The notes under the pieces were generated by a model. It ran no database searches. It was not told the DNA's origin and saw only the letters and a program-made list of their open reading frames with translations. From positions 1 to 35,119 of the forward strand of contig CACZYK010000026.1 in NCBI GenBank assembly GCA_902785295.1: a stretch of 35,119 nt of DNA. Reading direction: 5' to 3'. Source of the DNA: an uncultured Clostridium sp. Its GTDB lineage: Bacteria > Bacillota > Clostridia > Clostridiales > Clostridiaceae. The translations under genes were made by a program, and so were the position numbers. This document shows, piece after piece, positions 5,057-35,119 of this stretch (its first letter is position 1; each line of letters begins with the position of its first letter).

Positions 5057-5230
5057 ATAATTACTCCTTAATAAAATGTTTCAGTAAATGTTTTCATATA
5101 TTATACCATACTTTTATATTATTTTTAATTTAAATTTAATTTTATTTTTATACACAACCTCTGGAATATTAATCCTCGTTTCCCATAAAGATTCTAGTTT
5201 ATAAAAAAATCTTCTGCACATAATAATAGT

Positions 5231-5286
5231 GCAAAGCAAATTAGCTTAACAAAATAATTTTTGCAAAGCAAATTTACTTAGCAAAA
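5231..5286 (+). repeat. Imperfect 24-bp direct repeat in the SASP leader
   Basis: GCAAAGCAAATTAGCTTAAC at 5231 (unit 5231-5254) recurs as GCAAAGCAAATTTACTTAGC at 5263 (unit 5263-5286), 21 of 24 bases identical, period 32. It fills the space between a possible forespore promoter (CATAATA at 5219-5225) and the SASP ribosome binding site. It may be a binding site or leader-RNA element; no function is known. Confidence 0.6.
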
Positions 5287-5318
5287 AAAATATTTATTTA
5301 GTAGAGGAGGAATTTATT

Positions 5319-5504
5319 ATGTCACAACAAAAAGCAGTTCCAGAAGCAAAAAATGGTTTAGCCAAATTTAAAAATGAGGTAGCTAGTGAAATGGGAGTTC
5401 CTTTTACTGATTACAATGGAAACCTATCTTCAAAACAATGTGGAAGCGTTGGAGGAGAAATGGTTAAAAGAATGGTAGAACAATACGAACAAAATATGAA
5501 GTAA
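5319..5504 (+). CDS. Alpha/beta-type small acid-soluble spore protein
   Basis: 61-aa SASP that coats and protects spore DNA and is degraded by the Gpr protease at germination. Both family blocks are present: the N-terminal block ending KFKNEVASEMGVPF, which contains the Gpr cleavage region around E-V-A, and the C-terminal block CGSVGGEMVKRMVEQYE. It closely resembles the C. perfringens SspC proteins. Strong AGAGGAGG ribosome binding site 10 nt before the ATG. Monocistronic, closed by the hairpin at 5514. Forespore (sigma-G) control is expected from the family; a CATAATA -10-like element is at 5219, but no convincing -35 was found. Confidence 0.95.
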   Translation: MSQQKAVPEAKNGLAKFKNEVASEMGVPFTDYNGNLSSKQCGSVGGEMVKRMVEQYEQNMK

Positions 5505-5513
5505 GACAGTAAA

Positions 5514-5546
5514 AAGGTAATGACATTTGTCATTACCTTCCCCTTT
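5514..5546. terminator. Bidirectional terminator between the SASP gene and the 132-aa gene
   Basis: Perfect 11-bp stem, AAGGTAATGAC (5514-5524) and GTCATTACCTT (5529-5539), loop ATTT, followed by CCCCTTTTT. A further outer arm (GACAGTA before, TACTGTC after) extends the pairing and overlaps the last codons of the convergent gene at 5547, so it probably serves both genes. Confidence 0.85.
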
Positions 5547-5945
5547 TTATACTGTCCATTCCATTTTAACATCAGTTAAAATATTATCTATTCCATAATC
5601 ATAAATATTTAGTTTAATATCTTCTTTTAATAATTCAGATATTATTTCATCCTTTTCACTTTGAAAGAAATCTGTCTCCCTTACTTTTTCAATAAAATCT
5701 TCTAAATCATATATTTTACATTCTCCTTCATCAACCCCTGTTATTATTCCTAAATCTTGTTGGTCCTTTTCTTGATATAAATCAAAAAACTTTTCTGCAT
5801 TTTCAGCAATTGGAGAATTTTCAAGTATATTATTAAGATTATAGGTACTTATAAAACTTCTTGCATCAGATAATTCCTTAAAACCTATTAAATCTCCATT
5901 TGGCTGAGCTACTACATAATTATTAAAAGCAGTTATATATTCCAT
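5547..5945 (-). CDS. Hypothetical acidic protein, 132 aa
   Basis: Not recognised. The protein is soluble and rich in D/E, with no signal peptide, membrane helix or catalytic motif seen. It opens MEYITAFNNYVVAQPNGDLIGF and alternates predicted beta and alpha segments. Real coding is supported by a strong AGGAGGT site in front of the ATG and a shared terminator at its end. Probably monocistronic. Confidence 0.75.
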   Translation of the reverse strand: MEYITAFNNYVVAQPNGDLIGFKELSDARSFISTYNLNNILENSPIAENAEKFFDLYQEKDQQDLGIITGVDEGECKIYDLEDFIEKVRETDFFQSEKDEIISELLKEDIKLNIYDYGIDNILTDVKMEWTV

Positions 5946-6030
5946 AAAATTTTACCTCCTAAATAATATATTTTCAAATATATCTTCTGCTTTTATAAGA
6001 ATTTATATGTATGTCTTTTTTAAATAAAAA

Positions 6031-6150
6031 TATTAGGCTTCTTATCTTAGGGAAGCAAGACTACTTTGTTAGCTATATAAGTAAGAATTATTAAATTCTT
6101 TACAGTTAACAAAGTAAGTCAAACTTTTTTAGAAGATAAAAAGCCTAATA
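6031..6150. repeat. 120-nt nested inverted repeat downstream of clpB
   Basis: Three concentric inverted repeats share one axis: outer arms 6031-6048/6133-6150 (17 of 18 bp), middle arms 6059-6071/6107-6120 (13 bp with one bulge), inner arms 6083-6089/6094-6100 (7 bp). The whole could fold into one long rod. It starts 14 bp after the clpB stop, and T-rich DNA lies on the far side, so it can act as the clpB terminator, but it is far larger than needed for that. Confidence 0.7.
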
Positions 6151-6164
6151 AAAGTCTTATTTTT

Positions 6165-8762
6165 CTATTTAGTTGTAATAATTATTTCATCATTTTGTCC
6201 ATCTATTACAGCTGTTGAACCATAATGAATATCACCTTTAATTATTCTTCTTGCTAAGTTATTTTCTAATGTATTTTGAATATATCTCTTAAGAGGTCTT
6301 GCACCATAAACTGGGTCATATCCTTCTCTTGCAAGTATTGTCTTTGCATTTTCAGTAACCTCAATATTTATGTTCTTATCTTTTAATCTTTCTTTTAATT
6401 CTCCTAAGAATATATCTATAATCTTCTTAATTCCTTCCTCTGTTAATGGCTTAAACATTATAATGTCATCTACTCTATTTAAGAATTCAGGTTTAAATTT
6501 CATCTTTAAAGTATTCATAACTTGTTTTTTAGACTCTTCACTTATAGTTTCTCCATTTTCATTTAAAAGATATTGAGAACCTATATTAGAAGTCATTATG
6601 ATTATTGTATTTTTAAAGTCTACTGTTTTACCTTTATTATCTGTTAATCTTCCATCATCTAATATTTGAAGGAACATATTAAATACATCTTCATGAGCCT
6701 TTTCAATTTCATCAAAAAGAATAACACTATATGGTTTTCTTCTTACAGCCTCAGTTAATTGACCACCTTGTTCATATCCTACATATCCTGGAGGCGCTCC
6801 AACTAATCTAGATACGGCATGCTTCTCCATATATTCAGACATATCAATTCTTATCATAGCATCTTCACTATCAAACATTGTTCTTGCTAATGTTTTTGCA
6901 AGTTCAGTTTTACCAACACCAGTTGGTCCTAAGAATATAAATGAACCTATTGGCTTGTTTTCATCTTTAAGACCTGCTCTTGCTCTTAAGATAGCATTTG
7001 ATACTGCTTTTATTGCAGTTTCTTGACCAATTACTCTCTTTTCAAGTTCATCATCTAGTCTTAATAATTTTTCTCTTTCGCTCTCAAGAAGATTAGCTAC
7101 TGGTATACCAGTCCACTTAGATAAAACTTGAGAAATTTCTTCTTCAGTTACTTCTTCTTTAAGAAGAGCACCTTCATAGTTATCTTTTACCTCTTTTTCC
7201 TTTTGCTTTATTTCTTCTTCAATTTTAGGAATTTCAGAATATCTTACTTCAGCTACTTTATTATAATCATATTCTCTTTCATATTTTTCTAATTTTCCTC
7301 TTGCTTCATCAAGTTTTGTCTTTAATTCTTTAATTGATGAAATATGTTCTTTTTCTTTTTCATATTTAGCAGTCATTTCATCATTTTTATCTTTTAATTC
7401 TGCAAGTTCTTTTTCTAGGTCTTTAAGTCTTTCAACTGAGCCATCATCTTTTTCTTTTTCTAGAGCTTCTTTTTCAATTTCTAATTGGAAAATCTTTCTT
7501 CTTATTGTATCAAGTTCTGTTGGAAGAGAATCTATCTCAGACCTTATCATAGCACCAGCTTCATCTATTAAATCAATTGCTTTATCTGGAAGAAATCTAT
7601 CTTGAATATATCTATCAGAAAGCTTTGCTGCTGCAACTATAGCAGAATCATGAATTCTTATTCCATGATGTATTTCAAATTTTTCTTTTAATCCTCTTAA
7701 AATAGAGATAGTGTCCTCTACTGTTGGCTCATCAACAATAACTGGTTGGAATCTTCTCTCTAATGCCTTATCTTTTTCAATATATTGTCTGTATTCATCA
7801 AATGTTGTAGCACCTATGCAGTGTAATTCTCCTCTTGCAAGAAGTGGCTTTATTAAGTTTCCTGCGTCCATTGCACCATCAGTTTTACCAGCACCAACTA
7901 TTGTGTGAATTTCATCTATAAATAATATTATCTTTCCTTCACTGCTTTGAACTTCTTTTAAAACAGCTTTTAATCTCTCTTCAAATTCACCTCTATATTT
8001 TGCACCAGCTATTAATGAACCCATATCAAGAGAGAATATTATTTTATCTTTTAATCCTTCTGGAACATCACCTTTTACAATTCTTTCAGCTAATCCCTCA
8101 ACAATTGCAGTTTTACCAACACCAGGTTCACCAATTAAAACTGGGTTATTTTTTGTTCTTCTTGAAAGAATTCTTACAGTTCTTCTTATTTCTTCATCTC
8201 TTCCTATTACAGGGTCAAGTTTATGTTTTTTAGCTAAGTCAACTAAATTTGTACCATATTTAGCAAGAGCATCATAAGTTCCTTCTGGGTCTTGAGTATC
8301 TACTCTTTGATTTCCACGAACCTCTCCTAATACTTTCATAAATTTATCTTTATTAATTCCATAATTCTTTAGTATAGCTCCTGTTGGACCATTTTTATCA
8401 ACATCAATAATTGCAAGCATTAAATGCTCTACACTTATATATGAATCTTTAAATTGTGTTGATATTTCTTCTGCTTTAACTAAAACACTTTCTACTTGTC
8501 TTGTTATATAAACTCCACCACCATCAACTCCACTACCTGAAACTGTTGGCATAGATTTTAATTTTGTATTTATTGAATTTTTTAATGCTTTAACATCAAT
8601 ACCCATTTTAGTAAAGATATTTGGAATAAGTCCATCTTCTTGTTCTACTAAAGCGGAGAAAAGATGTATTACTTCTATTTGCTGATGATTATATCTTACA
8701 GCAGTTGAATTTGCATCATTTAAAGCTTGTTGAACTCTTAATGTCATTTTTTCTACATTCAT
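6165..8762 (-). CDS. clpB: ATP-dependent disaggregase ClpB
   Basis: Hexameric Hsp100 chaperone that with DnaK pulls proteins out of aggregates. The 865-aa length is typical. Order: N-domain (about 1-145), first AAA domain with Walker A GEPGVGKT and Walker [10 protein letters not shown], the coiled-coil M-domain (about 400-530, rich in E/K) that marks ClpB rather than ClpA/C, and a second AAA domain with GPTGVGKT and [11 protein letters not shown], ending in a normal C-terminus. No IGF loop for ClpP was seen, as expected. ATG with AGGAGGG 6 nt upstream. The promoter carries a CtsR box (8801-8830). Monocistronic. Confidence 0.97.
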
Positions 8763-8800
8763 ATTTATCCCTCCTGGATATTAATTTCTTCTATGTTTAT

Positions 8801-8830
8801 ATAATAACACTAAAGTCAAAGAAAGTCAAA
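8801..8830 (-). promoter_or_regulatory. clpB promoter with CtsR operator
   Basis: On the plus strand AGTCAAA-GAA-AGTCAAA (8814-8830) fits the CtsR heptad repeat (A/G)GTCAAA-NAN-(A/G)GTCAAA exactly. On the minus strand the same bases supply the -35 TTGACT (8824-8829); with a 17-bp spacer and TATTAT (8801-8806) they form a sigma-A promoter. A bound repressor would cover the -35 and spacer, giving heat-inducible clpB. Confidence 0.85.
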
Positions 8831-8926
8831 GTAAAGTTTAAAATTTTTTAAAATTTTTTTTGAATATTTAAAATATTTTTTTCTATTGTAATCATATTAT
8901 TTATATTCAATGTAAATAATTTCCTA

Positions 8927-8955
8927 TTGTACTTTTTTGTCTTTCTTTATATAAT
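8927..8955 (+). promoter_or_regulatory. Putative promoter of mscS
   Basis: TTGTAC (8927-8932), 17-bp spacer, TATAAT (8950-8955), about 28 nt before the ribosome binding site. It is divergent from the clpB promoter and about 100 bp from it, so the CtsR box should not affect it directly. Confidence 0.6.
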
Positions 8956-8989
8956 ATAATAGTTATTTTAACAAAAGGAGGAATTCATT

Positions 8990-9847
8990 ATGGAAGTATC
9001 TTTAGAAACTGCTACTTCTTCTGAAGTTTCTTTATCTTCAATAGAAAAAATAGCAGACAAACTACTAGACTGGGCCATGAGTAATGGCGTAAAAATACTA
9101 ATTGGATTAATAATTTTAGGAATAGGATGGAAAGTTATAAAGAAATTAATGAAAATATTTAATAGCTTTTCAAGTAGAAAAGAAATAGATTCTACTCTTC
9201 ACTCATTTTTAGGTGCTTTTTTAGAGTTAGCACTTAAAGCACTTTTAATAATATGTGTCCTAGGTTATGTTGGTTTTGAAATTACTGGACTTGCTGCTTT
9301 ACTAGCTTCTGCTGGTTTTGCTATTGGTTTAGCACTACAAGGAAGCTTATCTAATTTTGCTGGTGGTGTTATAATTCTTGTCATGAGACCTTTTCAAATT
9401 GGAGATTATATTGAATCTTCAAGCCACAGTGGTACTGTTGAAAAAATTGAATTGTTCTATACTCATCTTATAACTCCTGATAATAAAGCTATTATGATTC
9501 CAAATGGTGCTCTTTCAAATAGCACTATTGTAAATTATTCTTCTAAAGATACAAGAAGAGTAGATTTAGTTTTTGGAGTTGGATATGAAGATGATATTCT
9601 TCATGTTAAAAGAGTTTTATCTAATATAATTGATAGTTGTGATTTAATATTAAAAAATCCAGAACCATTCATAAATATATGTGAACATGGAGATAGCTCT
9701 GTAAATATTGCTGTAAGAGTATGGACAAAAACAAGTGATTATTGGAATGTGTACTTTTACCTAATTGAACAAGCAAAAATTAAATTTGATGAAGAGAATA
9801 TTAATATTCCTTATCCTCAAATGGACTTACATATTCAAAACAAATAA
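8990..9847 (+). CDS. mscS: Small-conductance mechanosensitive channel MscS
   Basis: Homoheptameric membrane channel that opens under membrane tension and releases osmolytes on hypo-osmotic shock. The 285-aa protein has an N-terminal amphipathic stretch, TM1 (about 34-52), TM2 (about 70-95) and the pore-lining glycine/alanine-rich TM3 (AALLASAGFAIGLALQGSLS). This is followed by the family signature GGVIILVMRPFQIGDYIE and the cytosolic beta and alpha/beta domains (IPNGALSNSTIVNYS). The ATG follows AAAGGAGG by 7 nt. Monocistronic; a long hairpin lies just after it. Confidence 0.93.
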   Translation: MEVSLETATSSEVSLSSIEKIADKLLDWAMSNGVKILIGLIILGIGWKVIKKLMKIFNSFSSRKEIDSTLHSFLGAFLELALKALLIICVLGYVGFEITGLAALLASAGFAIGLALQGSLSNFAGGVIILVMRPFQIGDYIESSSHSGTVEKIELFYTHLITPDNKAIMIPNGALSNSTIVNYSSKDTRRVDLVFGVGYEDDILHVKRVLSNIIDSCDLILKNPEPFINICEHGDSSVNIAVRVWTKTSDYWNVYFYLIEQAKIKFDEENINIPYPQMDLHIQNK

Positions 9848-22732: not shown

Positions 22733-23491
22733 TTATATTATTGCAAAAACTATATCTATGCTATTAGCTGGAATTATATCATTAATTGCATCTTCAAAAG
22801 TTTGTAAAACAAATTCTCTATTATTTCTAAAAACTCCACATCCATAAGCTCCTAAAACTGCACAATCTGGATTTTTTTCTGCTATTAAAGAAACTATTTT
22901 ATATATTCTTTCTTTCATAACTTTTTCAATTTCACATTCCTTAATTCCTCTACTTCTAGCAACTCCTGCATTAGGAGCTGGTGAAGTTATTATAGAACAA
23001 TTTATAGGTTCTTCTAATGTTTCTCCATTAGGAAACTTCTTAAAAACTTGAATGTCTGGAGAATAAATTATTCTATTACTATATAAAGGATTATGTTCTA
23101 ATCTATTATATCCATAATAAAAATCCATTGCCTTTATTTGAGAAAAATATAAAGTAGAAACATAAGAAATACACTCTTCTTGAGCTACTGTTCCTCTTAA
23201 AAAGCCTCCTCCAGGATTTTTAGCAGATGCAAAATTTAATACTGCCATTGTTTTTTCAGGGTTTTTAGTTCCATAACTTTCTATAAAATCAGTAACGCCT
23301 ATTTTTTCTATGTTGTCCTTAACACAAAACCATTTATCTTGATTTAGCTTTTCTTTTATAACCATATCTTCAATACATTCTGGTTTTTTAGGAATTCTTA
23401 ATTTTTTTATCTCACCTTTATAAGGGTATTCCCCTTTTTTTGTACATTCTACTGTATTTTCAGCTAAAATTATTCTATCTTCTCTTTTCAT
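22733..23491 (-). CDS. Bacterial-type poly(ADP-ribose) glycohydrolase (TIGR02452 family)
   Basis: 252-aa macrodomain-fold hydrolase that releases ADP-ribose from modified targets. The PARG signature is complete: GGG (94-96) and QEE (104-106) in NPGGGFLRGTVAQEECISY, with the catalytic glutamates. The second conserved block, PDCAVLGAYGCGVFRNN, lies near the C-terminus, and the adenine-site segment SPAPNAGVARSRG is in between. No PARP or other transferase is seen nearby. It lies 21 bp downstream of the NADAR gene, forming one operon. AAGGAG site before the ATG. Confidence 0.9.
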   Translation of the reverse strand: MKREDRIILAENTVECTKKGEYPYKGEIKKLRIPKKPECIEDMVIKEKLNQDKWFCVKDNIEKIGVTDFIESYGTKNPEKTMAVLNFASAKNPGGGFLRGTVAQEECISYVSTLYFSQIKAMDFYYGYNRLEHNPLYSNRIIYSPDIQVFKKFPNGETLEEPINCSIITSPAPNAGVARSRGIKECEIEKVMKERIYKIVSLIAEKNPDCAVLGAYGCGVFRNNREFVLQTFEDAINDIIPANSIDIVFAII

Positions 23492-23512
23492 AAACCTTCA
23501 CCTACTCCTTAA

Positions 23513-24036
23513 CTATTTTATTATTTCAATAAGCTTGTCTCTAACTTCCATTAAAGCAAAGCCTAATAAATTTTCTCCTTTCCAATAAAATGGATTTTCT
23601 ATATACTCATCCTTATATGACATTTTTATTCCCCATACAGAATCATAAGTACTAGCTTCTACTAAAATTCTATCTTTAGTATTTATTAAAAAATTCTTTA
23701 ATTCTTCATTTTGAGAAAACTTTTCATAATTTCCTCTTAAAACAATATCATACTTATTGTCATTCCATATATCCTGATTAAAATTTTTCACTTCTCTCCC
23801 TAATGCTTTTATCTTTTTAGGATATTTACATTCCATTATTTTTTCTTCTATTTCTTTATCTTTAAATAATCTTGCTTTTTCTGCCATCATATATTGTACT
23901 TACTTTGCCACCATTGGCTGAAACAAGCTTTTGTTATACTTCCATCTTGAGAAGGTGTGTGTCCATAGAAAAAAATATATTTCATTTTTTCCTTTTTATT
24001 AAATTTATCCTTTAATATACTTACTGAATATTTCAT
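23513..24036 (-). pseudogene. NADAR family ADP-ribose glycosidase, frameshifted
   Basis: NADAR proteins cleave ADP-ribose from modified guanine bases or related N-glycosides. The N-terminal part runs from an ATG at 24034-24036 (AGAGGT site) through YIFFYGHTPSQDGSITKACF and SQWWQSK, then stops at 23887. The C-terminal part continues in another frame from QYMMAEKARLFKDKEIEEKI to 23513 and includes the family ends ILVEASTYDSVWGIKMS and NLLGFALMEVRDKL. About 12 codons between SQWWQSK and QYMMAEK are missing, which removes part of the active site and shifts the frame. A 125-aa protein could start at 23890 but would lack the N-terminal domain. First gene of the operon with PARG. Confidence 0.82.
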
Positions 24037-24210: not shown

Positions 24211-24358
24211 TTGACACATATTTGCCACAGTTCTCTCTTATAATAAAAGCATAAAGTAATTCACATCCCCCAAAAATTAATGTAATTACTGAAAATAGAT
24301 ATTTATCCCCCATTTAAAAAAGCCAATGCTTACTCCCCTTAAGCATTGGCTTTATTTT
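24211..24358 (+). ncRNA. Small-RNA candidate B, look-alike of candidate A
   Basis: TTGACA (24211-24216) and TATAAT (24239-24244) are again exactly 22 bp apart, with TGACA-N6-TGCCA (24212-24227) between. RNA would start near 24251 and run about 105 nt without a reading frame. A hairpin AGTAATT-C-ACAT/ATGTAATTACT shows CCCCC in its loop, a second TATCCCCCA is unpaired near 24305, and the terminator AAAGCCAATGCTTA/TAAGCATTGGCTTT (24319-24332/24340-24353) has loop CTCCCCT and a T-run. The terminator also contains the last codons and stop of the acyl-CoA ligase gene on the other strand, so it may serve both. The stretch 24118-24210 upstream holds no gene. Confidence 0.5.
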
Positions 24359-25646
24359 TTAATAGCTTCTTATTTACTTTTCCAGAATCATTTAAAGGAA
24401 TTTCATCTAAAAAAATTATTTTTTTAGGTATTTCACTATTCATGAGCCTCTCATTTAATTTAGATTTTATCTCAGCTTTAGATATTTCATCATTAAGAAC
24501 TATATAAGCTATAATCTCTTTTCCTTTATTTTCATCTTCATATGTATCTACAACTGCATTTTTTATTTCTTTTATCTTTTTTATTTCATTTTCAATTTTT
24601 AAAGTGCTTATTTTTATACCACCTTTATTAATCACATCATTTTTTCTTCCTTGAAAAATTAAATCTCCATCTTCATCTATATATCCCACATCATATACTG
24701 TACAAGGACTTTTCATTCCTTCTACATGATATTTGGTATCTATATAAATATATCCATCCTTTATAAAAACATTAACATCTTTAAAAGCTTTTCCTAAGCT
24801 TAAAGGCTTTTTCTTTAAAGTTTCTATGTTAGTATATGTAATATAATTTAACTCACTTGCTCCATAATAAATAATTATTTCTGCATTTTTAAAACTAAAT
24901 CTTAATTTTTCTGATAAATCTCCAAATAACTGTTGTGAACCTGTGAAAATATTTTTTACAAATAATAAAGGACTATCAATTACTTGAACTAATGCCTTTA
25001 ATTTTGCTGGTACTAAATAAATATTAGTAACTTTAAACTCTTCTAATGCTTTTAGCCACTTTCTTGGATTAAATCCTGATACAGAAATTAAAGTTCCCTT
25101 TGCATAAATAACTCCTAATATGCTATTTAAATTTCCTGTAAAGCTTAATGACCCATTAAAAAACACTTTAGAGTGAGAATTTATATTAAATACTTCATTT
25201 TGTATAGGGAAAAATTCTGCCCAACTTTCATAAGTTCTAAAAAGTACTTTAGGTATTCCAGTTGAACCAGATGTCAAAACTCCCACACATATTTTTTCAT
25301 TTTCTATTACATTTTTAAAATTATTAACCTTTTCAAATTTTATATCTTCTTCATTTTTACATAGCAAATAATTTATATTATTTTTCTCCATTATTTCATC
25401 TATACTTTCTTTTGAAAGATTAGGATGAAATATTACTGGTACATTTCCACATCTATTTGCTGAAAAAAAACTTATAAGCTGAAAGTATATGTCATCACTA
25501 TATATTGCTATAATCTCCTTTTTTGATGTTTCTATTTTATTACTTAAATCTAATGCATCATTAAATAGTTTATTATATGAATAGCTTTTATTATCTAAAA
25601 TTAAAGCTATTTTATCTTCTTTTACTAATAAATCAAAATAATTCAT
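24339..25646 (-). CDS. AMP-forming acyl-CoA ligase of the biotin-regulated operon (YhfT-like)
   Basis: ANL-superfamily adenylating enzyme that activates a carboxylic acid to its CoA thioester. The phosphate-binding loop is VLTSGSTGIPKVLFRT, the A5 region is IIYYGASELNYIT, the hinge block is VYDVGYIDEDGDLIFQGRKN, and the catalytic lysine region near the C-terminus is PLNDSGKVNKKLL. At about 435 aa it is short for the family. The frame overlaps the thiolase stop (ATGA at 25652-25655), but the ATG at 25646 is better spaced from AGAGG and is preferred. The fatty-acid or pimelate-like substrate is inferred from context only. Last gene of the operon. Confidence 0.85.
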   Translation of the reverse strand: MNYFDLLVKEDKIALILDNKSYSYNKLFNDALDLSNKIETSKKEIIAIYSDDIYFQLISFFSANRCGNVPVIFHPNLSKESIDEIMEKNNINYLLCKNEEDIKFEKVNNFKNVIENEKICVGVLTSGSTGIPKVLFRTYESWAEFFPIQNEVFNINSHSKVFFNGSLSFTGNLNSILGVIYAKGTLISVSGFNPRKWLKALEEFKVTNIYLVPAKLKALVQVIDSPLLFVKNIFTGSQQLFGDLSEKLRFSFKNAEIIIYYGASELNYITYTNIETLKKKPLSLGKAFKDVNVFIKDGYIYIDTKYHVEGMKSPCTVYDVGYIDEDGDLIFQGRKNDVINKGGIKISTLKIENEIKKIKEIKNAVVDTYEDENKGKEIIAYIVLNDEISKAEIKSKLNERLMNSEIPKKIIFLDEIPLNDSGKVNKKLLKNKANA

Positions 25647-25651
25647 TTTTA

Positions 25652-26779
25652 TCATCCTCTTTCAATTAAAATAGCTATACTTATACCTCCTGAGGCAGCA
25701 ATAGATGTTATTCCATATTTTCCATTAAGCTTTTCTAATGCTTTTAATAAATGTAACATTATTATTGCTCCAGAAGCTCCATAAGGATGTCCATAAGCTA
25801 ATGCTCCTCCAAATATATTGTATCTATCTATAAGAGAAGGATTTTTTCTTTGAAACATAACATCAATAGCTGCAAATGCTTCATTAAATTCAAAAGCTGA
25901 AATATCCTCATAAGATAAATTTTCCTTTTCTAAAAGCTTATCACATGCCTTTAAAGCTCCTTTAGGACTTACTAAAGGATTAATTCCTATAGTTTTTACT
26001 GCTTTTATTTTATATTCTGATTTTAAATTATTCACTTTTAAGTATTTTTTTGAACATAAAATTAAAAAGGCTGCTCCATCATTAGTTAATGATATATTCC
26101 CAACATTTGTTTTTCCATCCCTTATTATTTTAGGGAGTCTATTTAAAAGCCTTTCACTCATATTTTTTCTTATACCTTCATCTCTTCTGCTTCCATTAAC
26201 TGATACAACTATATCTTTTAATATATCTTTACTTTCAAATGCTCTTTTATGACTTTTTATACTCCAATAATTTAATTCTTCTTCAGTAATATTTTCTTCC
26301 TCTACAACTCTTTCACCAAATTTAAAAGTTGTATCTTCCCCAAACTCCTCTGGTGAAAATTGTGCTACATTATATTTTCCTTCATTGATACTACTTCTGT
26401 AATCTTTGTTATTATATATTCTTGAAGGTTTCATTGAAGAGCTTTCAAACCCACCTGCAATAATTATATCTGCTTCATTACATTTTATTTTATTATAAGC
26501 TATTTCAATGGCTTTACTTGCTGAAGCACACTGCACATCTACAGTAAAAGCAGGAACTTCTTCTGAAATTCCTGCTTTTAAAGCCATAAGCCTTGTAATG
26601 TTTCCACCTGTTCCTATAGTATTTCCACAAATTATCTCATCAATATTTTTAATGTTATATTTATAAATCAAGGACTTTAAAACCTCTGCACCTAAATCCT
26701 CTGGTAAAGTATTTTTATATACTCCATTTTCAATACCTATATAGCTTCTTAATCCACCTAAAATATAAACTTCATCCAT
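25652..26779 (-). CDS. Thiolase family protein lacking the second catalytic cysteine (YhfS-like)
   Basis: 375 aa. Thiolase fold with the nucleophile C84 in VDVQCASASKAIE, the NEAFAA segment and the oxyanion block GGALAYGHPYGASGAI. The C-terminal C-x-G motif, which supplies the second active-site cysteine, is replaced by IAASGGISIAIL, so alanine or serine occupies its place. This may change the reaction from thiolysis/condensation to something else, or reduce it. It overlaps the ligase frame by 4 bp and follows bioY by 23 bp. GGAG ribosome binding site. The operon resembles B. subtilis yhfUTS. Confidence 0.88.
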   Translation of the reverse strand: MDEVYILGGLRSYIGIENGVYKNTLPEDLGAEVLKSLIYKYNIKNIDEIICGNTIGTGGNITRLMALKAGISEEVPAFTVDVQCASASKAIEIAYNKIKCNEADIIIAGGFESSSMKPSRIYNNKDYRSSINEGKYNVAQFSPEEFGEDTTFKFGERVVEEENITEEELNYWSIKSHKRAFESKDILKDIVVSVNGSRRDEGIRKNMSERLLNRLPKIIRDGKTNVGNISLTNDGAAFLILCSKKYLKVNNLKSEYKIKAVKTIGINPLVSPKGALKACDKLLEKENLSYEDISAFEFNEAFAAIDVMFQRKNPSLIDRYNIFGGALAYGHPYGASGAIIMLHLLKALEKLNGKYGITSIAASGGISIAILIERG

Positions 26780-26802
26780 TATTTTCTCCTTATGGCTTTA
26801 TT

Positions 26803-27336
26803 TTAAGCTTTAACTAAAGATAATCTTTTATTTAAAGCTACAGCTATATATGAACCTAAAATACATTTTAATATATCCCCTGGTATAAACGGAAATACAC
26901 TTGCTGTTAATAATTGAATTAAATTTCCTTTCATATATATTTTCATTGTTGTTAATCCACATAAATAAATTATAGGAATTCCAACTGCCATTGTAATTAA
27001 AAGGTATCTTTTTATATTTACCTCTTTTCCCTTTAAAATACTTATAACCACAGCAGCTATTAAATAACCTAAAATATATCCTCCTGTAGGACCAAAAAGT
27101 TTTCCAAAACCACCTGTTCCTCCTGAGAATACTGGAAGTCCACAAGCACCTAAAAGTATATAAACAAACATTGTAATAAAAGCTTCTTTTGGAAGCATTA
27201 TTAATCCAATTAAATTGATAACAATAGTTTGAGCTGTAATGCTTGCTAAAGAAAATGGTAGTGGAATAATTATATATGATGAAATACATAATAATGCCAC
27301 ACATAATGAAATTTTTGTTAAATCTTTTGTTTTCAT
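26803..27336 (-). CDS. bioY: BioY biotin transporter substrate-binding subunit
   Basis: 177-aa S-component of an energy-coupling-factor transporter that captures biotin in the membrane; it would use the shared EcfAAT module encoded elsewhere. Five to six hydrophobic helices and the BioY hallmark ACGLPVFSGGTGGFGKLFGP followed by TGGYILGY are present. The ribosome binding site is AAGGGG. It lies 15 bp after the MaoC-like gene and is under the BirA-boxed promoter. Confidence 0.95.
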   Translation of the reverse strand: MKTKDLTKISLCVALLCISSYIIIPLPFSLASITAQTIVINLIGLIMLPKEAFITMFVYILLGACGLPVFSGGTGGFGKLFGPTGGYILGYLIAAVVISILKGKEVNIKRYLLITMAVGIPIIYLCGLTTMKIYMKGNLIQLLTASVFPFIPGDILKCILGSYIAVALNKRLSLVKA

Positions 27337-27351
27337 TGTTTAAACCCCTTT

Positions 27352-27906
27352 TTATTTAAATATTATTTTAACGCATAATTTATTGTTGCTATAAGCCAAA
27401 ATACTTTCTTCACTTTTTTGTAAAAATATTTCTTCATCAGCAAATATAGGATTGATAAATTTAATTTCTAATTCTTTAAAATTACCAATCTCCTTTATTA
27501 TTTCATTTAAAAGAAACATTCCCTGAACAACAGGCTTATTTGTTAAATGTATATAATTTTCATCCCCAGTTAATTTGCTAAATTTATAAACTTCCTCTTT
27601 GCTTATTTTCCTCCAAAAGGAAATATTTTTTTCTAAATTAATATCCATATTTTCCTTAACAAAATCCTCTACACATAAATTATTATTTCTTTTCTTAACC
27701 AAATAAATATTTAGCTTTTCTAAAAGTTTTTCTTTAAACTTCTTTTCTATTACAATTATCACTAAATTTTTATTTTCCTTTTCTATGTATGAAAAATACT
27801 CTCCATCTTTTTCTTTACAATAAATTTCATATTTAATTTTCCCAATATATGCTCCCTGAAAGCTATCTTTATTAAGCTTTGACAAAGAAATTCCAAATTC
27901 TATCAT
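27352..27906 (-). CDS. MaoC-like hotdog-fold dehydratase-type protein
   Basis: 184 aa. The C-terminal half has the (R)-hydratase signature FSKLTGDENYIHLTNKPVVQ, with the catalytic D and H five residues apart, then a GMFLLNEII helix. The N-terminal 90 residues are not recognised and may be a degenerate second hotdog half. Predicted to hydrate or dehydrate an acyl thioester, or to bind one. The frame is open up to 27957, but the ATG at 27906 follows AGGGTGG by 7 nt and the mapped promoter's start site lies near 27922, which excludes the longer form. First gene of the biotin-controlled operon. Confidence 0.75.
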   Translation of the reverse strand: MIEFGISLSKLNKDSFQGAYIGKIKYEIYCKEKDGEYFSYIEKENKNLVIIVIEKKFKEKLLEKLNIYLVKKRNNNLCVEDFVKENMDINLEKNISFWRKISKEEVYKFSKLTGDENYIHLTNKPVVQGMFLLNEIIKEIGNFKELEIKFINPIFADEEIFLQKSEESILAYSNNKLCVKIIFK

Positions 27907-27928
27907 ATTATTACCACCCTTAGTAAAA

Positions 27929-27957
27929 ATTATAATTGCTAATAAGTTTATTGTCAA
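27929..27957 (-). promoter_or_regulatory. Consensus promoter of the biotin-controlled operon
   Basis: Minus strand TTGACA (27952-27957), 17-bp spacer, TATAAT (27929-27934): a perfect sigma-A promoter, giving a leader of about 16 nt. Its -35 is inside the BirA box. Confidence 0.9.
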
Positions 27958-29044: not shown

Positions 29045-30958
29045 TTACAAGTCATTGATAGTTACTATATAGTCGATTAATTTTTGTAAACTATTAATTA
29101 AATTTTTCAACATATCTTCATCTGGTTTTTCCATACCATCTATTTCTTTTTCAAAGTGTTCTATTGTTAAGTTATTGTACACATATCTAGCCAATTCATC
29201 TTTATGCTTAATCGTACCACTAGCTTTATCTACATTGGTTATTCCTCTTGATGCTAAAATTTCTCCTACTCCTTCTTTTTTGCTAAATACATTCCAATCT
29301 GTACAAGTATCTACTCCTTTAATTTTAGATGCTTTTTGCTCAGCTCTATTTGTATAAAATCTCTTTAGTAAATCAGGATGGCAATAATTTTCCAATTCCT
29401 TTCCTTCCATAATCCAAAAATTCGGTATTTTATATATTTTATCTTCTATATCTTCCACACTTAAAACTTTGTCTTTTAGCTTATCATTTAGTTTATTTTG
29501 TGAATTCAATTCCTTCGCAATTCTAATCATTCGATTATATTTCTCATTTCCCTTTTTCATATTATCTGAATCAATGATAACGAATGGATTTGGATTTACT
29601 TTTAATACTTTTAATAAATAATCTTCCTCTATTGAACTAATTTCCATTTCCTCTTCTTCAAAAGATAAGTGTGAAATATTACTACCACCAGTCATTAAAA
29701 TAGAATAATGTAATCCTTCAACTATTCTTAATTTCTTGTTATTTTTCTTTAAATATTTTAAATATTCTCTAATCCATGCTCTAATCCAAAAAACTTCTGA
29801 TGGACCTTCTACCCATACAACGCAATTGCTTAATAATACATTTCCTGGCATTATTCCTAAACTATTATATACATCTCTTAAAATTTTTGCACTTTTGCTT
29901 CCATTTTCATATGTTCTAAAAAAACCCTCTAACTTACATTCTGAACCAATCTTATAAAACTTATATATATAATCATTCACTTTAGCTGCACCTATAACAG
30001 TTGATGAATGAGTTGATACTATAAATTGAATACTATCTTGCTCTTGTATAATATTCATTAATACTCTTATAATTCCTGGTTGTAAATGACTTTCTATCTC
30101 ATCTATTATTATAAGCCTCTTGTTATTTCTACATATCTCCATTAATAAAATATATAACATGGTATAACCAGTTCCAACTTCTGATGAATCTAATTTCAAT
30201 TGTCCATCAAATACAAAACTCAATTCATTTTTATTGATAGATGATTCAACCGACAAAGGTGCTTCTAAATTAAACTCATTTTTTATCCATTCTAAAACTT
30301 TCTGTTTACATCTTTGTTTATTACCTTGATCTCCACTTGTTTTTAACCACTCAATGATTTCAGAACCAGACAATCTATTAGAATAACCTACTCTATCAAA
30401 GGATCTAATAGAATCAAATACCAATATATTTTTTATAATCTCTGTATATAACACCTTGCTAATAACTTTAATATCTATCTCTTCCATTTGATAATTAATT
30501 TTTAGTTCATCTATACTATCAGCTTTAATTTTATTCTTATTTTCGGATACAAATAATTCCATCTCAAATGTATTATTTACTTTTATAATATTAATATTAA
30601 GCAATACCAACTTGAACTTTTTTATCCATGTTATATATTCATCTTTATTTTCAAAAATATTTTTATTTTCTTCTATATATTCTTTATTTACATCAAAACA
30701 TACTTTAATTTCTTGATTTGTATCAAACATATAAAAATCAGTATCATCAACTTCACTTAATTTATAATTGTTGTTCGCTTTTTTACTTTTCTCTAAACTT
30801 CTAGGTAAAAGAGATAATAAACGTGTTATTAATGATTTACCTGTATTATTACATCCAATTAGAAATGTAATATGCCCATTTTCAGACAAACTAAGTTCTT
30901 GTTCATCTTTAAACCCCCTATAATTTTTTATATATATAGAATTTATAAATCTACTCAT
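29045..30958 (-). CDS. ABC-type ATPase with TOPRIM nuclease domain (OLD/GajA-like)
   Basis: 637 aa. The N-terminal SMC/ABC-like ATPase has Walker A GCNNTGKS (35-42), signature-like SSEVGTGYTML (258-268), Walker B RLIIIDEIES (281-290) and H-loop STHSS (316-320). The C-terminal TOPRIM domain has the catalytic E384 in VVWVEGPSEVFW and D463-x-D465 in FVIIDSDNMKK, with a later conserved-looking ELENYC. This is the layout of OLD-family nucleases and of GajA of the Gabija defence system. Its ATG lies inside the end of the HerA gene (8-bp overlap), so the two are made together, probably as one complex. No UvrD-like GajB partner is present. The likely role, ATP-gated DNA cutting against phage or plasmids, is inferred. 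Confidence 0.88.
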   Translation of the reverse strand: MSRFINSIYIKNYRGFKDEQELSLSENGHITFLIGCNNTGKSLITRLLSLLPRSLEKSKKANNNYKLSEVDDTDFYMFDTNQEIKVCFDVNKEYIEENKNIFENKDEYITWIKKFKLVLLNINIIKVNNTFEMELFVSENKNKIKADSIDELKINYQMEEIDIKVISKVLYTEIIKNILVFDSIRSFDRVGYSNRLSGSEIIEWLKTSGDQGNKQRCKQKVLEWIKNEFNLEAPLSVESSINKNELSFVFDGQLKLDSSEVGTGYTMLYILLMEICRNNKRLIIIDEIESHLQPGIIRVLMNIIQEQDSIQFIVSTHSSTVIGAAKVNDYIYKFYKIGSECKLEGFFRTYENGSKSAKILRDVYNSLGIMPGNVLLSNCVVWVEGPSEVFWIRAWIREYLKYLKKNNKKLRIVEGLHYSILMTGGSNISHLSFEEEEMEISSIEEDYLLKVLKVNPNPFVIIDSDNMKKGNEKYNRMIRIAKELNSQNKLNDKLKDKVLSVEDIEDKIYKIPNFWIMEGKELENYCHPDLLKRFYTNRAEQKASKIKGVDTCTDWNVFSKKEGVGEILASRGITNVDKASGTIKHKDELARYVYNNLTIEHFEKEIDGMEKPDEDMLKNLINSLQKLIDYIVTINDL

Positions 30959-32741
30959 CTATTATTTCCCACCATCTATTTACTACATTTTTTACAGAAT
31001 AATCATGTATTTCTTCATTCCAACGTTCTCTAAAATTTATATCATTTGAATTTGGTTTTGGGTTTGGCTCATCTATTAATACCTTACTTGGTATTCTTAC
31101 ACATTCTCCTACTACCAAGCATTCTCCATTTTCAAAAAATGGAATCATATTAGTTAAGGAACTAAGATGATCTGGCATAACATTTTTTACAAAATTTTGA
31201 TCACTAGGATTTGTAAGTCTTAATACAAAAAAATTAGAACACTGAGATATAATAGAATCATATAAATCCGAAGGTCGTTGACTGATTAATAATTCACTAA
31301 TCCCATATTTTCTGCCTTCTTTTGAAATCTTTGAAATTGAATTTATAGAAAATTTTGTTAAAGAATTTTTTTCTTTTGGAATATAATTTTGACATTCTTC
31401 AAATATTAAATATAATGGTAATTTACTAATTTTATTATCCCAAACTTTATACTCTAGACAAACTCTTGATAGTACCCCCACTATTACAGGTATTATTTCT
31501 GACGGTAACGTAGATAAATCTAATATGCTCATTTGTTTTTGTTCTTCTTTTATCTTTACACATAACAATTCTTCTAAATATGTATATAATGTAGTAGATT
31601 TATCAAACTCATTGCCAAATAAAAACTTATACCTTCTATCTTCCTTTATGCTCTCTATCCTCTGAATAATTTGTGTGCATTTTCCATAATATGAGTCTAA
31701 TTTATTTACTTTATCGTTTTCACCAGGCTTGTCTGTTCTTTCTACATTCTTGTTTCCTTGTGGTCTTATAAAATTTCCTTTAGAATCTCTTGCTTCTGTG
31801 TTATCACTTGCCCAAATAGTTGCTTGATTTTTATCCTTTAATTTCTCTATTAATTTTTCTATAGAATATTTTAATGGAGCATTAATATTAATTTTATCTA
31901 TTTTACCTACTTCTTTTTCAATTAATTGATGCTCTTCCCTTTTTAGTTCTAATATTGTTTCTTTAAGTATTCTGATACCATCTGAATTATGACTTTCATT
32001 ACTATCTCCTAAAAAAATATATACAAACTCTTCAAAGTTTAATAACCAATATGGTAGCCTAAAATCATTTCCACTAACCTTATTTACTCTATATTCCAAA
32101 TCCTTGCTAATAAATGCTGACGAATACTCATTATGTAAATCAAAAAATACAATGTGGCTATAAAAACATTGCTTTAAAATCTTTTGAATAATGCTTGCAA
32201 CTGTACAAGACTTTCCAGAACCAGTAGAACCAAAAATAACTGAATGTTTATTTAAAAACTTGTTAGTATCAATTGCTACCTTTTCGCTATTAACTCCTGA
32301 AGCTGTCCCTATTTCAGTTCCATTATCAGAATCAATATGAAATAATTCACTCTTTTCTTGAGAAGATAATAAATAGCAATTTGAATTAAATTTTGGATAA
32401 TGACCTATACCTCTTCTAAAACATAATTTTTCGCTTGTTTTATCTTGATATCCTATGACTTTAGCAACAATCACAGCTTTGCTATTATTAACATCATTTA
32501 CATCAGTAACCAACTTTACTTCTTCAAATATTCCATAATGAACAGTATCTTTTAATTCAGGATCTCCTATTAAAAATATATCACCAACAGTTCCTACATA
32601 TAACTTTTTAACTTCATTATTTATTGTAGCTTTTTGTTCTAATTTATTTTTATAGATATCTTCTTCAATTGATATAATTATTTCAATTCCTGATATTGAT
32701 ATTATACTACCAAAGGATTTATTTTTCATAATAATTCCCAT
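30951..32741 (-). CDS. HerA-type DNA translocase/ATPase
   Basis: 596 aa. An N-terminal HAS-barrel-like beta domain (about 10-120) is followed by a RecA-like motor of the HerA/FtsK class: Walker A GSTGSGKS (171-178), IVFFDLHNEYS (about 197-207), Walker B PLYLIFEECQNYI (442-454), and the sensor/arginine region KEGRKYGISELLISQRPSDL (474-493). An insertion of about 80 residues (about 265-345) is low-complexity and charged. Such proteins form hexamers that pump DNA and in defence loci pair with NurA, SIR2 or DUF4297 nucleases. Here the partner is a TOPRIM ATPase, translated through an 8-bp overlap. ATG with AAGGAG 6 nt upstream. Confidence 0.9.
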   Translation of the reverse strand: MGIIMKNKSFGSIISISGIEIIISIEEDIYKNKLEQKATINNEVKKLYVGTVGDIFLIGDPELKDTVHYGIFEEVKLVTDVNDVNNSKAVIVAKVIGYQDKTSEKLCFRRGIGHYPKFNSNCYLLSSQEKSELFHIDSDNGTEIGTASGVNSEKVAIDTNKFLNKHSVIFGSTGSGKSCTVASIIQKILKQCFYSHIVFFDLHNEYSSAFISKDLEYRVNKVSGNDFRLPYWLLNFEEFVYIFLGDSNESHNSDGIRILKETILELKREEHQLIEKEVGKIDKININAPLKYSIEKLIEKLKDKNQATIWASDNTEARDSKGNFIRPQGNKNVERTDKPGENDKVNKLDSYYGKCTQIIQRIESIKEDRRYKFLFGNEFDKSTTLYTYLEELLCVKIKEEQKQMSILDLSTLPSEIIPVIVGVLSRVCLEYKVWDNKISKLPLYLIFEECQNYIPKEKNSLTKFSINSISKISKEGRKYGISELLISQRPSDLYDSIISQCSNFFVLRLTNPSDQNFVKNVMPDHLSSLTNMIPFFENGECLVVGECVRIPSKVLIDEPNPKPNSNDINFRERWNEEIHDYSVKNVVNRWWEIIDE

Positions 32742-33183
32742 TTTGTACTCCTTATATACTTTATCTTTATATTACATTTATAATTATACAATATTTTTTA
32801 TATTTGTGAAACTAATATAGTGTACATTATAATGTCTACTATTATTCTCTTACAAGTCAAAATTATATGTACAAAAAGTAACTCTCCATTCATATAATTA
32901 TCATCCTCTAATATTTAATTTATAATAATTTTATATATATACATAGAGATATGTTATAGAAAAATAATAGATAAAATTACATATTATATAATAGAAAAAG
33001 CTACAAAAGTATTGGTATCACTAACTTTGAAACTCTAAATTTTTTATAATTTTCTATAGATAAAAAAATAACTATTCAATTTAATTCTTATCTATTTCTG
33101 CTTTAATATCTAATATAAGCACATCTGACCTACAGACAACTTATATACAAATATTTACTTTATTCAAATTTAACAAAAAAGAC
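32742..33183. other. Intergenic region before the HerA operon
   Basis: About 440 bp, A/T-rich, no reading frame of note. It contains a putative minus-strand promoter, TTTCAC (32806-32811), 17 bp, TATAAT (32783-32788), which gives HerA-TOPRIM its own transcript. Nothing else was recognised. Confidence 0.5.
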
Positions 33184-33206
33184 TTTTAACCTGATTCAGG
33201 TTAAAA
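33184..33206 (-). terminator. Terminator of the methylase/specificity operon
   Basis: A perfect 11-bp palindrome TTTTAACCTGA-T-TCAGGTTAAAA (effective loop ATT), followed on the minus strand by GTCTTTTTT. It ends the transcript of the specificity gene 60 bp after its stop and separates it from HerA. Confidence 0.85.
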
Positions 33207-33266
33207 ATCCTTTTTCTAGTTATGGGTTATTTCATTGCTCCTAACTATTTGTAAGTAAAATAAGAA

Positions 33267-34385
33267 TTATGAAACTTTTTCATTTAATTCTTTAATATTA
33301 TTTACAATATTTTTTATAGATAATTTCTTTTGTGCTTTTATAAAATTATCCATAAAATCAAAATCCACACTTCCATTTGGTAATACTGGTAATTTAACTA
33401 ATAAATTTTCTGCTATTTGTCTATTAAATTTTATAGAATAATCAAATTGTTTATCTGCTGATTTTCTAAATACAATCAAAAAATATAATAAAGTATTTTC
33501 TCCCCAAATTGAAGTATCATAAGGATATAATCCTTGTATATGTGAATATCCAATAAAATCATTAGGTTGATAAAAAATTGTCTTTGCACCACTTGTTGTA
33601 TCGCTAAATGTAATAATTCCACCTCTTTCTGTTGCTGGTAAATTTACATATCCACCTATTCCATTGTTTATAGATGAATTAGCTAATACCGGAACTTTCC
33701 CCTTTGTTTTATATAATACTTTATTAGTATATTTATATGCTTTTGTAGGATGTATATCAAAAAATTCTTTAATTTTAAATTCTTTATATTCTACCTTACC
33801 TCTTTTGTACAATTCAATAGTATATTGTTCTTTTGGTGATAATATACAAGTATCTAATCCATTTTTCTTTAGATAAACTGAAATTAAATTCATTTTAACA
33901 TTTTCAATTTTAGTTATGATTTTCTTCATATAATTATAATCAATCTCTCCATTGTCTCTTATTGGTAGACTAATTATGGTATTTTTTAATGCAATCTTAG
34001 TTGCTTTTTCATTATATGTAAACTTCTTCTTTATTACCTTTTTTATACATGCCATTATATATAATGCTATTTTTTCATCAATAAAATCTGATTGTAATAC
34101 ACTTGTTGCACCATGTCCATCTTTTAAGTAAAAAGGTGTCTCCACATACACTATATTTTGATTGTTAGAATGAATAAGAATTGTTGGTTTACTATCTTTA
34201 TTATTTAATACCTCGTCTTTTAAACTTAAATATGAAATAATTCCATTATTATTAATTGCTTGTCCATAAAAAGGATACTTATTTGAATTTTTTACTGTTA
34301 ATTCTTTTATTGACAATGGATTTATTTCTATTTGAGGTTGCCAATTTAATACATCTGAAATTTTAAAATTTTTAAACTTAACCAT
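33267..34385 (-). CDS. Type I-like DNA specificity subunit (HsdS-like)
   Basis: 372 aa. Two target-recognition halves are visible, each opening with a strand-rich domain and closing with the same pattern: ISLPIRDNGEIDYNYMKKII (about 133-152) and VKLPVLPNGSVDFDFMDNFI (about 335-354). Both are followed by a coiled helix. This is the arrangement of HsdS and of the BcgI-type S subunits that direct an adenine methylase to a two-part site. It begins inside the methylase gene (8-bp overlap ATGGTTAA) with an AGAGGTG site, so it is co-translated. No HsdR restriction gene is in the window. Confidence 0.87.
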   Translation of the reverse strand: MVKFKNFKISDVLNWQPQIEINPLSIKELTVKNSNKYPFYGQAINNNGIISYLSLKDEVLNNKDSKPTILIHSNNQNIVYVETPFYLKDGHGATSVLQSDFIDEKIALYIMACIKKVIKKKFTYNEKATKIALKNTIISLPIRDNGEIDYNYMKKIITKIENVKMNLISVYLKKNGLDTCILSPKEQYTIELYKRGKVEYKEFKIKEFFDIHPTKAYKYTNKVLYKTKGKVPVLANSSINNGIGGYVNLPATERGGIITFSDTTSGAKTIFYQPNDFIGYSHIQGLYPYDTSIWGENTLLYFLIVFRKSADKQFDYSIKFNRQIAENLLVKLPVLPNGSVDFDFMDNFIKAQKKLSIKNIVNNIKELNEKVS

Positions 34386-35058
34386 CTATATCACCTCTTA
34401 TAATTGCAGACATTTTCCAACTTAAATATTCATCAATTACTTCCGTAAAATCATTTTCTTTTGGAATTGTCTCTATTTTTAAATGTTGAGAAAAGAGCCA
34501 ATCATTTCCTTCAAGAGATATATTATCTTCAATATATTCCTCTTCTGTGAAATATTTAAGATATTTCCTTCCATAAAGAACCAAATTTACAATTTCTTCA
34601 TATCTTTCAATTGCATTATTTGTATTTCTAAGATTAGCATCTTGACTTGATTTTTTTCTATTTTGTCTTGTATATCCATCATTTGAAAAATTAATAAACT
34701 TAACTAATTGTTTTTCATTATGTGGTTTTCCAATATCAAATACATATATTGCAGTTTGAACACCAGCTTTTCCTTTAAAAATATCAGCCATATGTATACT
34801 TGCAACAAGAGTATTATTTTTTAATAATCTTTTAGTATAAGGCAATCCACTTCCACTGCCTGCATTCTCTTGTATTAAAACAACGGCTCTGCCATTATCC
34901 ATTCTACTTAAAGCTTTTTCTACAAAAACGAATCCTTTTCCAGCAGCAGAATATGGAGGATTAAGTAAAAATACATTTGCTGGATATCTTTTTCCTTTTA
35001 ACTCACCTTGTTCATATATTCGTAAGCGTAAAAAAATTGATGTATAGAAATTTAAAAT
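34378..35058 (-). pseudogene. N6-adenine DNA methyltransferase (HsdM-like), N-terminus missing
   Basis: C-terminal part only. The catalytic motif IV is intact as NPPYSAAGKGF (NPPY at 34951-34962), preceded by IYEQGELKGKRYPANVFLL and followed by DNGRAVVLIQENAGSGSG and the rest of the methylase core and tail. The SAM-binding motif I is absent. Upstream of about 35030 the translation stops resembling a methylase (FYTSIFLRL) and meets an in-frame stop at 35059-35061. The break lies at or near a junction followed by a strong inverted repeat. It may be a deletion, an insertion, or one phase of an invertible locus. A 174-aa product could start at 34902 but would lack the catalytic motif. Confidence 0.82.
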
Positions 35059-35072
35059 TTATGATGATAAAA

Positions 35073-35117
35073 TTAACCCATCAAAGCGTAATATATCGTA
35101 TTGCCTTGATGGGTTAA
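35073..35117. repeat. Perfect 12-bp inverted repeat at the right edge
   Basis: TTAACCCATCAA (35073-35084) and TTGATGGGTTAA (35106-35117) with a 21-nt loop. It looks like a terminator stem or the end of a mobile or invertible element, just beyond the point where the methylase gene breaks off. The window ends 2 bp later, so its partner cannot be seen. Confidence 0.7.
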
Positions 35118-35119
35118 AG

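Follow-up and report, generated by a model that had tools for sequence, protein, structure and literature searches.

What kind of unit arises where a gene for a HerA-type motor ATPase runs directly into a gene for an OLD-type nuclease? HerA rings in defence have NAD-consuming SIR2 or PD-(D/E)XK-type DUF4297 effectors as partners, and OLD nucleases are found in retrons, in PARIS, beside UvrD-like helicases or on their own. The question is raised by contig CACZYK010000026.1 from a draft genome of an uncultured Clostridium sp. (assembly GCA_902785295.1; the same genus as Clostridium sp. C2-6-12), analysed here at its full length of 35,119 nucleotides and called the window. A first-pass annotation made from its letters had proposed that two overlapping genes, one for HerA and one for an OLD/GajA-like ABC ATPase with a TOPRIM domain, form a single machine without a name. 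We find that one HerA lineage and one OLD lineage keep company at 13 loci, that the two have diverged in parallel and no third gene is common to the loci, and that the pair has an operon-like layout, intact motifs and a HerA that is specific in its partner. Two parts of known kinds are combined here in what looks like an anti-phage system not yet described. Judging from these comparisons we favour, with some reserve, the reading that the pair is a self-contained two-gene defence module, directed at phages or other foreign DNA, and that its HerA ring loads or activates the OLD nuclease.

Two overlapping genes

The features of the pair are as follows.

30951..32741, minus strand: HerA-type hexameric-motor ATPase gene, first of the pair (P0001); open reading frame (ORF) of 596 amino acids, assigned by DUF87, the PADLOC HerA model and solved HerA-type ATPases
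29045..30958, minus strand: OLD-type ABC ATPase plus TOPRIM gene, second of the pair (P0002); ORF of 637 amino acids, assigned by AAA_21/AAA_15, the catalytic set and the predicted fold
30951..30958, minus strand: 8-bp overlap of the HerA and OLD reading frames, from the ORF coordinates
32208..32231, minus strand: HerA Walker A, GSTGSGKS, residues 171-178, intact; from the sequence and aligned paired HerAs
30833..30856, minus strand: OLD Walker A, GCNNTGKS, residues 35-42; from the sequence and an alignment of 41 relatives
29807..29809, minus strand: TOPRIM glutamate E384 of WVEGPS, invariant in 41/41, aligned to GajA IEGPS
29564..29572, minus strand: TOPRIM D463-S464-D465, invariant in 41/41
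29390..29404, minus strand: G519-K-E521-L-E523, candidate second metal site of OLD nucleases; G519 and E523 invariant, E521 at least 90% conserved
29201..29203, minus strand: K586, candidate catalytic lysine, at least 90% conserved

The 8-bp overlap, from which a single unit had been proposed, proved real, and the pair recurs elsewhere. At 10 of the 12 other pair loci the frames, inspected by eye, likewise overlap or the OLD start lies a few bases from the HerA stop; the exceptions are L038, with a gap of about 80 bp, and L134, where the junction is ambiguous. The L134 OLD frame is itself in two pieces (7832-9743) behind an intact HerA, either a broken copy or a sequencing error.

The first protein has the HerA central domain (Pfam DUF87, E = 1.9e-30) with intact Walker motifs, which places it among the HerA ATPases, and phmmer aligns it with solved HerA-type ATPases at E-values from 1.4e-70 to 1e-61. 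Its best PADLOC match is the HerA model (454.6 bits), and NCBIfam HerA_antiphage_2 scores 334.6 bits, under a cut-off of 850; by its closest models it is a defence-type HerA. Residue 172, within Walker A, is serine or threonine across seven aligned paired HerAs.

The second protein carries an N-terminal ABC ATPase (AAA_21, 4.2e-16; AAA_15, 7.7e-15) and a C-terminal TOPRIM domain in one chain, with the glutamate and the DxD present, as in the OLD family. The Pfam model for OLD-like TOPRIM domains, PF20469, did not match it at E 0.01 and matches three of nine members of its close family (best 4.3e-4). Because that model gave no match, the TOPRIM assignment draws on the conserved motifs, on WVEGPS aligning with GajA LIEGPS in a profile comparison and on the predicted fold, which matches GajA (8x5i) over residues 2-633, although a structural second look tested little past residue 371. 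The motifs that the first-pass annotation had called intact are so: G35-x-N37-N38-x-G40-K41-S42, E287, E289, E384 and D463-S464-D465 are invariant in all 41 aligned OLD relatives. In the available part of a report on the Burkholderia pseudomallei OLD (PMC6755086), T506/E508 are second-metal-site residues and K562 is the catalytic lysine; we infer that the G519-E523 motif matches the former and K586 the latter. A profile of the OLD family also matches the Retron-Eco8 OLD (4.1e-16) and the T. scotoductus OLD (2.6e-13). No PADLOC family matches the window OLD over its full length, the best being NsnB (3.3e-20, ATPase part only), and GajA matches are partial (best 52.7 bits).

Recurrence and co-divergence of the pair

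Counting the window, 13 pair loci were found, in Clostridium, Desulfosporosinus, Tumebacillus, and Paenibacillus and its order. HerA precedes OLD in all 13, whereas elsewhere HerA follows SIR2 or DUF4297. Two surveys centred on HerA, of 398 Bacillota genomes and of 392 genomes from the order of Paenibacillus, are free of the bias of starting from OLD. The Bacillota sample, at E 1e-60 or better, gave 11 non-self HerA genes (302 to 389 bits), every one preceded by a SIR2 or DUF4297-like gene and lacking an OLD relative nearby. The order of Paenibacillus gave 33 HerA genes, nine at 694 bits or more and 24 at 394 bits or less; an OLD gene adjoins all nine high scorers, and among the 24 lower scorers none has an OLD relative in its fetched stretch and 23 have a SIR2 or DUF4297-like gene upstream. 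Pooled, OLD adjoins 9/9 high-scoring HerAs versus 0/35 lower-scoring ones; for 34 of the latter, the gene upstream of HerA is of the SIR2 or DUF4297-like kind. Since paired HerAs went into the HerA query profile, their high scores are accounted for, but not the absence of unpaired high scorers.

The 34 upstream neighbours comprise 24 SIR2 genes identified by models, one DUF4297 gene (540.8 bits) and nine that we term DUF4297-like from their 20-48% identity to the model-matched DUF4297 neighbour. Partners at L097, L147 and L159 are fragments; the weakest HerA (L161, 213.6 bits) has a transposase alongside and no partner.

The two proteins also diverge together. Pairwise identities of HerA and OLD correlate across 12 pairs (r = 0.975), and within each of two groups (0.97 and 0.92). 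In the HerA tree, which omits L161, the paired HerAs form group A, made up of the window and five loci from the order of Paenibacillus, and group B, made up of seven loci, each supported at 100/100. A first OLD tree omits L134, with its frame in two pieces, and the fragment L070. In a later OLD tree the OLDs of groups A and B, together with L023, L024 and L072, make up one side of a branch supported at 100/98.

A search for a third component covered the 117 ORFs that lie up to 5 kb from the 13 pairs. It gave five cross-locus matches, none joining more than two of the 13 loci: one is a Fic protein at L132 and L134, another an McrB-like protein at L133 and L134, and the remaining three are weaker or short. 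The unit is therefore two genes, placed at differing sites.

The pair is thinly spread, at 9/392 genomes in the order of Paenibacillus and 1/398 in the Bacillota sample (the window itself). A strong OLD match occurs in 2/225 genomes of the window's order, and the pair occurs in 1/82 genomes of the class of Desulfosporosinus and 1/14 of the order of Tumebacillus, both at known loci; the class of Desulfosporosinus also has five lower-scoring HerAs, and the window's order three weak OLD matches. Viral contigs, scanned twice with family alignments, gave 36 OLD and 46 HerA loci, none of the 82 with both in the fetched DNA, and two earlier viral-contig scans returned no relatives. Distant OLD matches occur in 10 plasmid records and one phage record. 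No HerA was found at the seven of the 10 plasmid places that were fetched (three near-identical Burkholderia places were omitted) nor at the phage place. A group B OLD as query returned eight plasmid or phage records from the same organisms, and HerA matches occur in 116 plasmid records.

Competing explanations

Several observations weigh against a dedicated two-gene module. A scan of species genomes for OLD motifs gave 56 loci, of which six have an adjoining HerA (L021, L022 from Paenibacillus abyssi with its pair at 4178-7935, L026, L037, L038 and L053) and 49 have none at E 1e-5 within the fetched DNA; L043 was rejected as a pair, being a SIR2-HerA unit near a distant OLD. That homologues of the two genes might usually lie apart was thus excluded from the HerA side, where nine of nine adjoin OLD, and borne out for the wider OLD family. 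L023, L024 and L072 are close OLD relatives that lack a HerA neighbour; in the L024 genome, moreover, none of this kind turned up at E 1e-30. Support for a HerA clade of groups A and B is 83/91 and drops to 64/39 in a reduced tree without two long rows (L043 and L097). The predicted HerA structure was poor (predicted local distance difference test score, pLDDT, 54.7) and was not used.

The OLD loci without HerA favour the explanation that the OLD protein works on its own as a class 1-like nuclease, with HerA an accessory that broadens or tunes it, so that one machine is not required. Class 1 OLDs act as single genes, according to the available part of a work on OLD classes (PMC10568477), and L072 is flanked by unrelated genes. 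Tumebacillus flagellatus has a window-group OLD without HerA between uvrB and uvrA (L023, 5965-7950) and a separate HerA-OLD pair of group B (L038), to which its sole HerA of this kind belongs. Approximately unbiased tests rejected a branch that has only the 12 paired OLDs on one side (p 6e-67), and likewise one with L023 and L024 added to them (p 0.0058); it is the three OLDs without a neighbouring HerA that break up such a clade. (The later OLD tree and these tests omit the long branches L014, L012, L015 and L073, and the remaining 49 HerA-less rows were thinned to 21.) Set against this, the HerA lineage of the pair always has OLD beside it in the surveys, the frames overlap or nearly touch at most loci, and divergence in one gene tracks that in the other. 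Furthermore, L023 stands next to the paired OLD of L137 in the tree (86/90 and 82/94), fitting a loss of HerA. We therefore regard an autonomous OLD as unlikely. The trees are most simply read as one pairing with later losses, although the weak HerA clade means that groups A and B may represent two separate pairings.

A function in processing or repairing DNA ends was also considered, in which OLD would stand in for the NurA of HerA-NurA. HerA-NurA resects DNA ends, according to sources available in part, and an OLD nuclease could take the NurA role. However, the pair is patchily present, its insertion sites differ, its HerA is nearest to defence-type HerA models, and restriction, McrB-like or Fic genes lie beside four of the 13 pairs (the window, L132, L133 and L134), all of which make a repair module improbable. 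The scan of neighbours for defence families covered these four loci and one ORF at L136; it gave no match for the L136 ORF or for several ORFs at L133 and L134.

The pair might instead belong to the restriction-modification locus beside it, for example as part of a MADS-like system with an ATPase (MAD3) and a HerA-like protein (MAD8). Upstream of HerA the window holds a specificity gene (Methylase_S, 7.4e-21) and part of a type IIG-like methyltransferase gene (1.2e-45), the OLD protein matches mad3 (4.1e-10, 37.7 bits) and HerA matches mad8 (1.1e-20, 72.4 bits). The following features lie between the specificity gene and HerA.

32748..32753, minus strand: AAGGAG ribosome-binding site 5' of HerA, judged good from the sequence
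32783..32810, minus strand: promoter-like site, TTCACA-16-TATAAT (11/12), the best match upstream of HerA; no enrichment over shuffles
33175..33215, minus strand: terminator-like hairpin between the specificity gene and HerA, from a sequence scan against shuffles

The specificity gene is 525 bp from HerA, and the hairpin intervenes; terminator-like sites in this region number two versus 0.4 in shuffles. A promoter belonging to the pair, which the first-pass annotation had assigned, was not borne out, as promoter-like sites are as frequent in shuffled sequence (40 versus 42.8, standard deviation 6.8). The MADS3 model scores 27.7 bits against a cut-off of 420, and the mad8 score is far under that of the HerA model. 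The neighbouring DNA-modification genes are real, as had been noted, yet they are not a conserved part of the 13 loci, and no methyltransferase recurs across them. The methyltransferase frame (34378-35119) carries a stop, and the sequence at the contig end matches eight other places in the genome, in part, at 81-100% identity; this points to a gene cut by a repeat or by the end of the assembly. Membership in MADS or in the restriction locus was rejected on the model scores, the hairpin and the non-recurrence, and we consider it very improbable. Finally, the two families each exist apart, but chance adjacency is refuted by the HerA surveys (9/9 against 0/35), and the 13 loci and the co-divergence also speak against it; its probability is negligible.

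Known systems, possible mechanism and neighbouring genes

Close in plan to the two-gene module are the DUF4297-HerA and SIR2-HerA systems (GAO_19 type), which likewise join HerA of the same family to an effector in two genes. They differ in that the window partner is OLD, HerA comes first rather than second and the paired HerAs form groups of their own; the gene upstream of the window HerA is the restriction specificity subunit. Gabija (GajA-GajB, class 2) shares a GajA-like ABC ATPase with TOPRIM, with the whole-protein model match to 8x5i and an aligned EGPS. Its motor, however, is a UvrD-like helicase, its PADLOC models match the OLD protein in part, and no UvrD/PcrA/Rep-like GajB adjoins the window OLD, whose neighbours are HerA and a YkuD transpeptidase.

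The same domain plan is found in OLDs of class 1, class 3 (retrons) and class 4 (PARIS), and those close relatives that lack HerA are similar to class 1. Among the four genes nearest to the pair, two per side (YkuD transpeptidase and MaoC-like; specificity and methyltransferase), there is no reverse transcriptase, and TOPRIM is fused in one ORF in the window, unlike the usually separate ariA and ariB of PARIS. The available part of the work on OLD classes (PMC10568477) lists single genes, Gabija, retrons and PARIS as classes 1 to 4 and describes none with a HerA partner. HerA-NurA also couples a HerA motor to a nuclease, but the partner here is OLD, no NurA is present and the paired HerA is nearer to defence HerAs. 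BREX-related and Dnd-related 'HerA/FtsK capture' systems likewise have a motor captured by nuclease systems, yet with many components, and the portions of these reports available (PMC12839542, PMC10853773) describe no two-gene unit of HerA and OLD-TOPRIM. No description of the pair was found in the literature searched, of which coverage was partial, and we do not claim its absence from print; to that extent its standing as an unnamed system holds.

As a two-gene module the pair may work as follows. HerA would form a hexameric ring on which OLD dimers or larger assemblies dock, probably at the N-terminal barrel, where DUF4297 docks in HerA-DUF4297. The ring would admit invader DNA or DNA ends, the HerA ATPase would drive or signal assembly, and the TOPRIM site, silent alone, would then cut DNA, with the OLD ABC ATPase as a nucleotide-gated switch; the cell would likely arrest or die. 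Between the window HerA and group B, identity is 20% in the barrel region versus 34-39% in the core, but within group A barrel and core are about equally conserved (0.52 versus 0.54), which leaves weak support for docking there. In HerA-DUF4297, six HerA and twelve DUF4297 subunits assemble, and assembly switches on both enzymes (PMC12198126, available in part); infected cells die or arrest (PMC11291478, likewise in part). By analogy, the same logic would be expected here with TOPRIM DNA cleavage. More tentatively, and with rather less conviction, the pair could be a fifth OLD system and a further HerA system, with OLD dimers capping the ring, the six-fold pump feeding DNA to a TOPRIM site kept shut until pump and two-fold ABC clamp engage, and the reversed gene order marking an independent recruitment.

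The HerA-OLD lineage would amount to an exchange of exactly the known parts, with the HerA ring as a general platform for unrelated effectors and OLD nucleases open to control by a DNA motor. It lets one ask how a TOPRIM nuclease stays silent and then switches on, and by what means a ring of six-fold symmetry could cooperate with a dimeric ABC nuclease. Defence-finding tools would gain a rule that they seem to lack, namely a HerA of the paired lineage followed by an OLD gene.

Some neighbouring genes deserve mention in their own right. A divergent SoFic-like Fic gene lies beside two pairs (L132, 5029-6153; L134, 4953-6074), the copies being 96% identical. Weakly similar ORFs (27%, E 1.9e-7) occur near the pairs at L136 (3237-4439) and L037 (9429-10472), and by eye one of them resembles an ORF near a DUF4297-HerA pair (L142, 1717-2907). 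On the minus strand of the window, at 22733-23890, a microbial PARG-type gene (PF10021) is immediately followed by a NADAR-domain gene (PF08719), possibly an ADP-ribose- or NAD-linked pair. Also on the minus strand, at 24339-27957, a row of AMP-ligase-like, thiolase-like, BioY-like transporter-like and MaoC-like genes resembles a bioY-type operon; the MaoC-like one was named from a sub-threshold Pfam match and the other three by eye.

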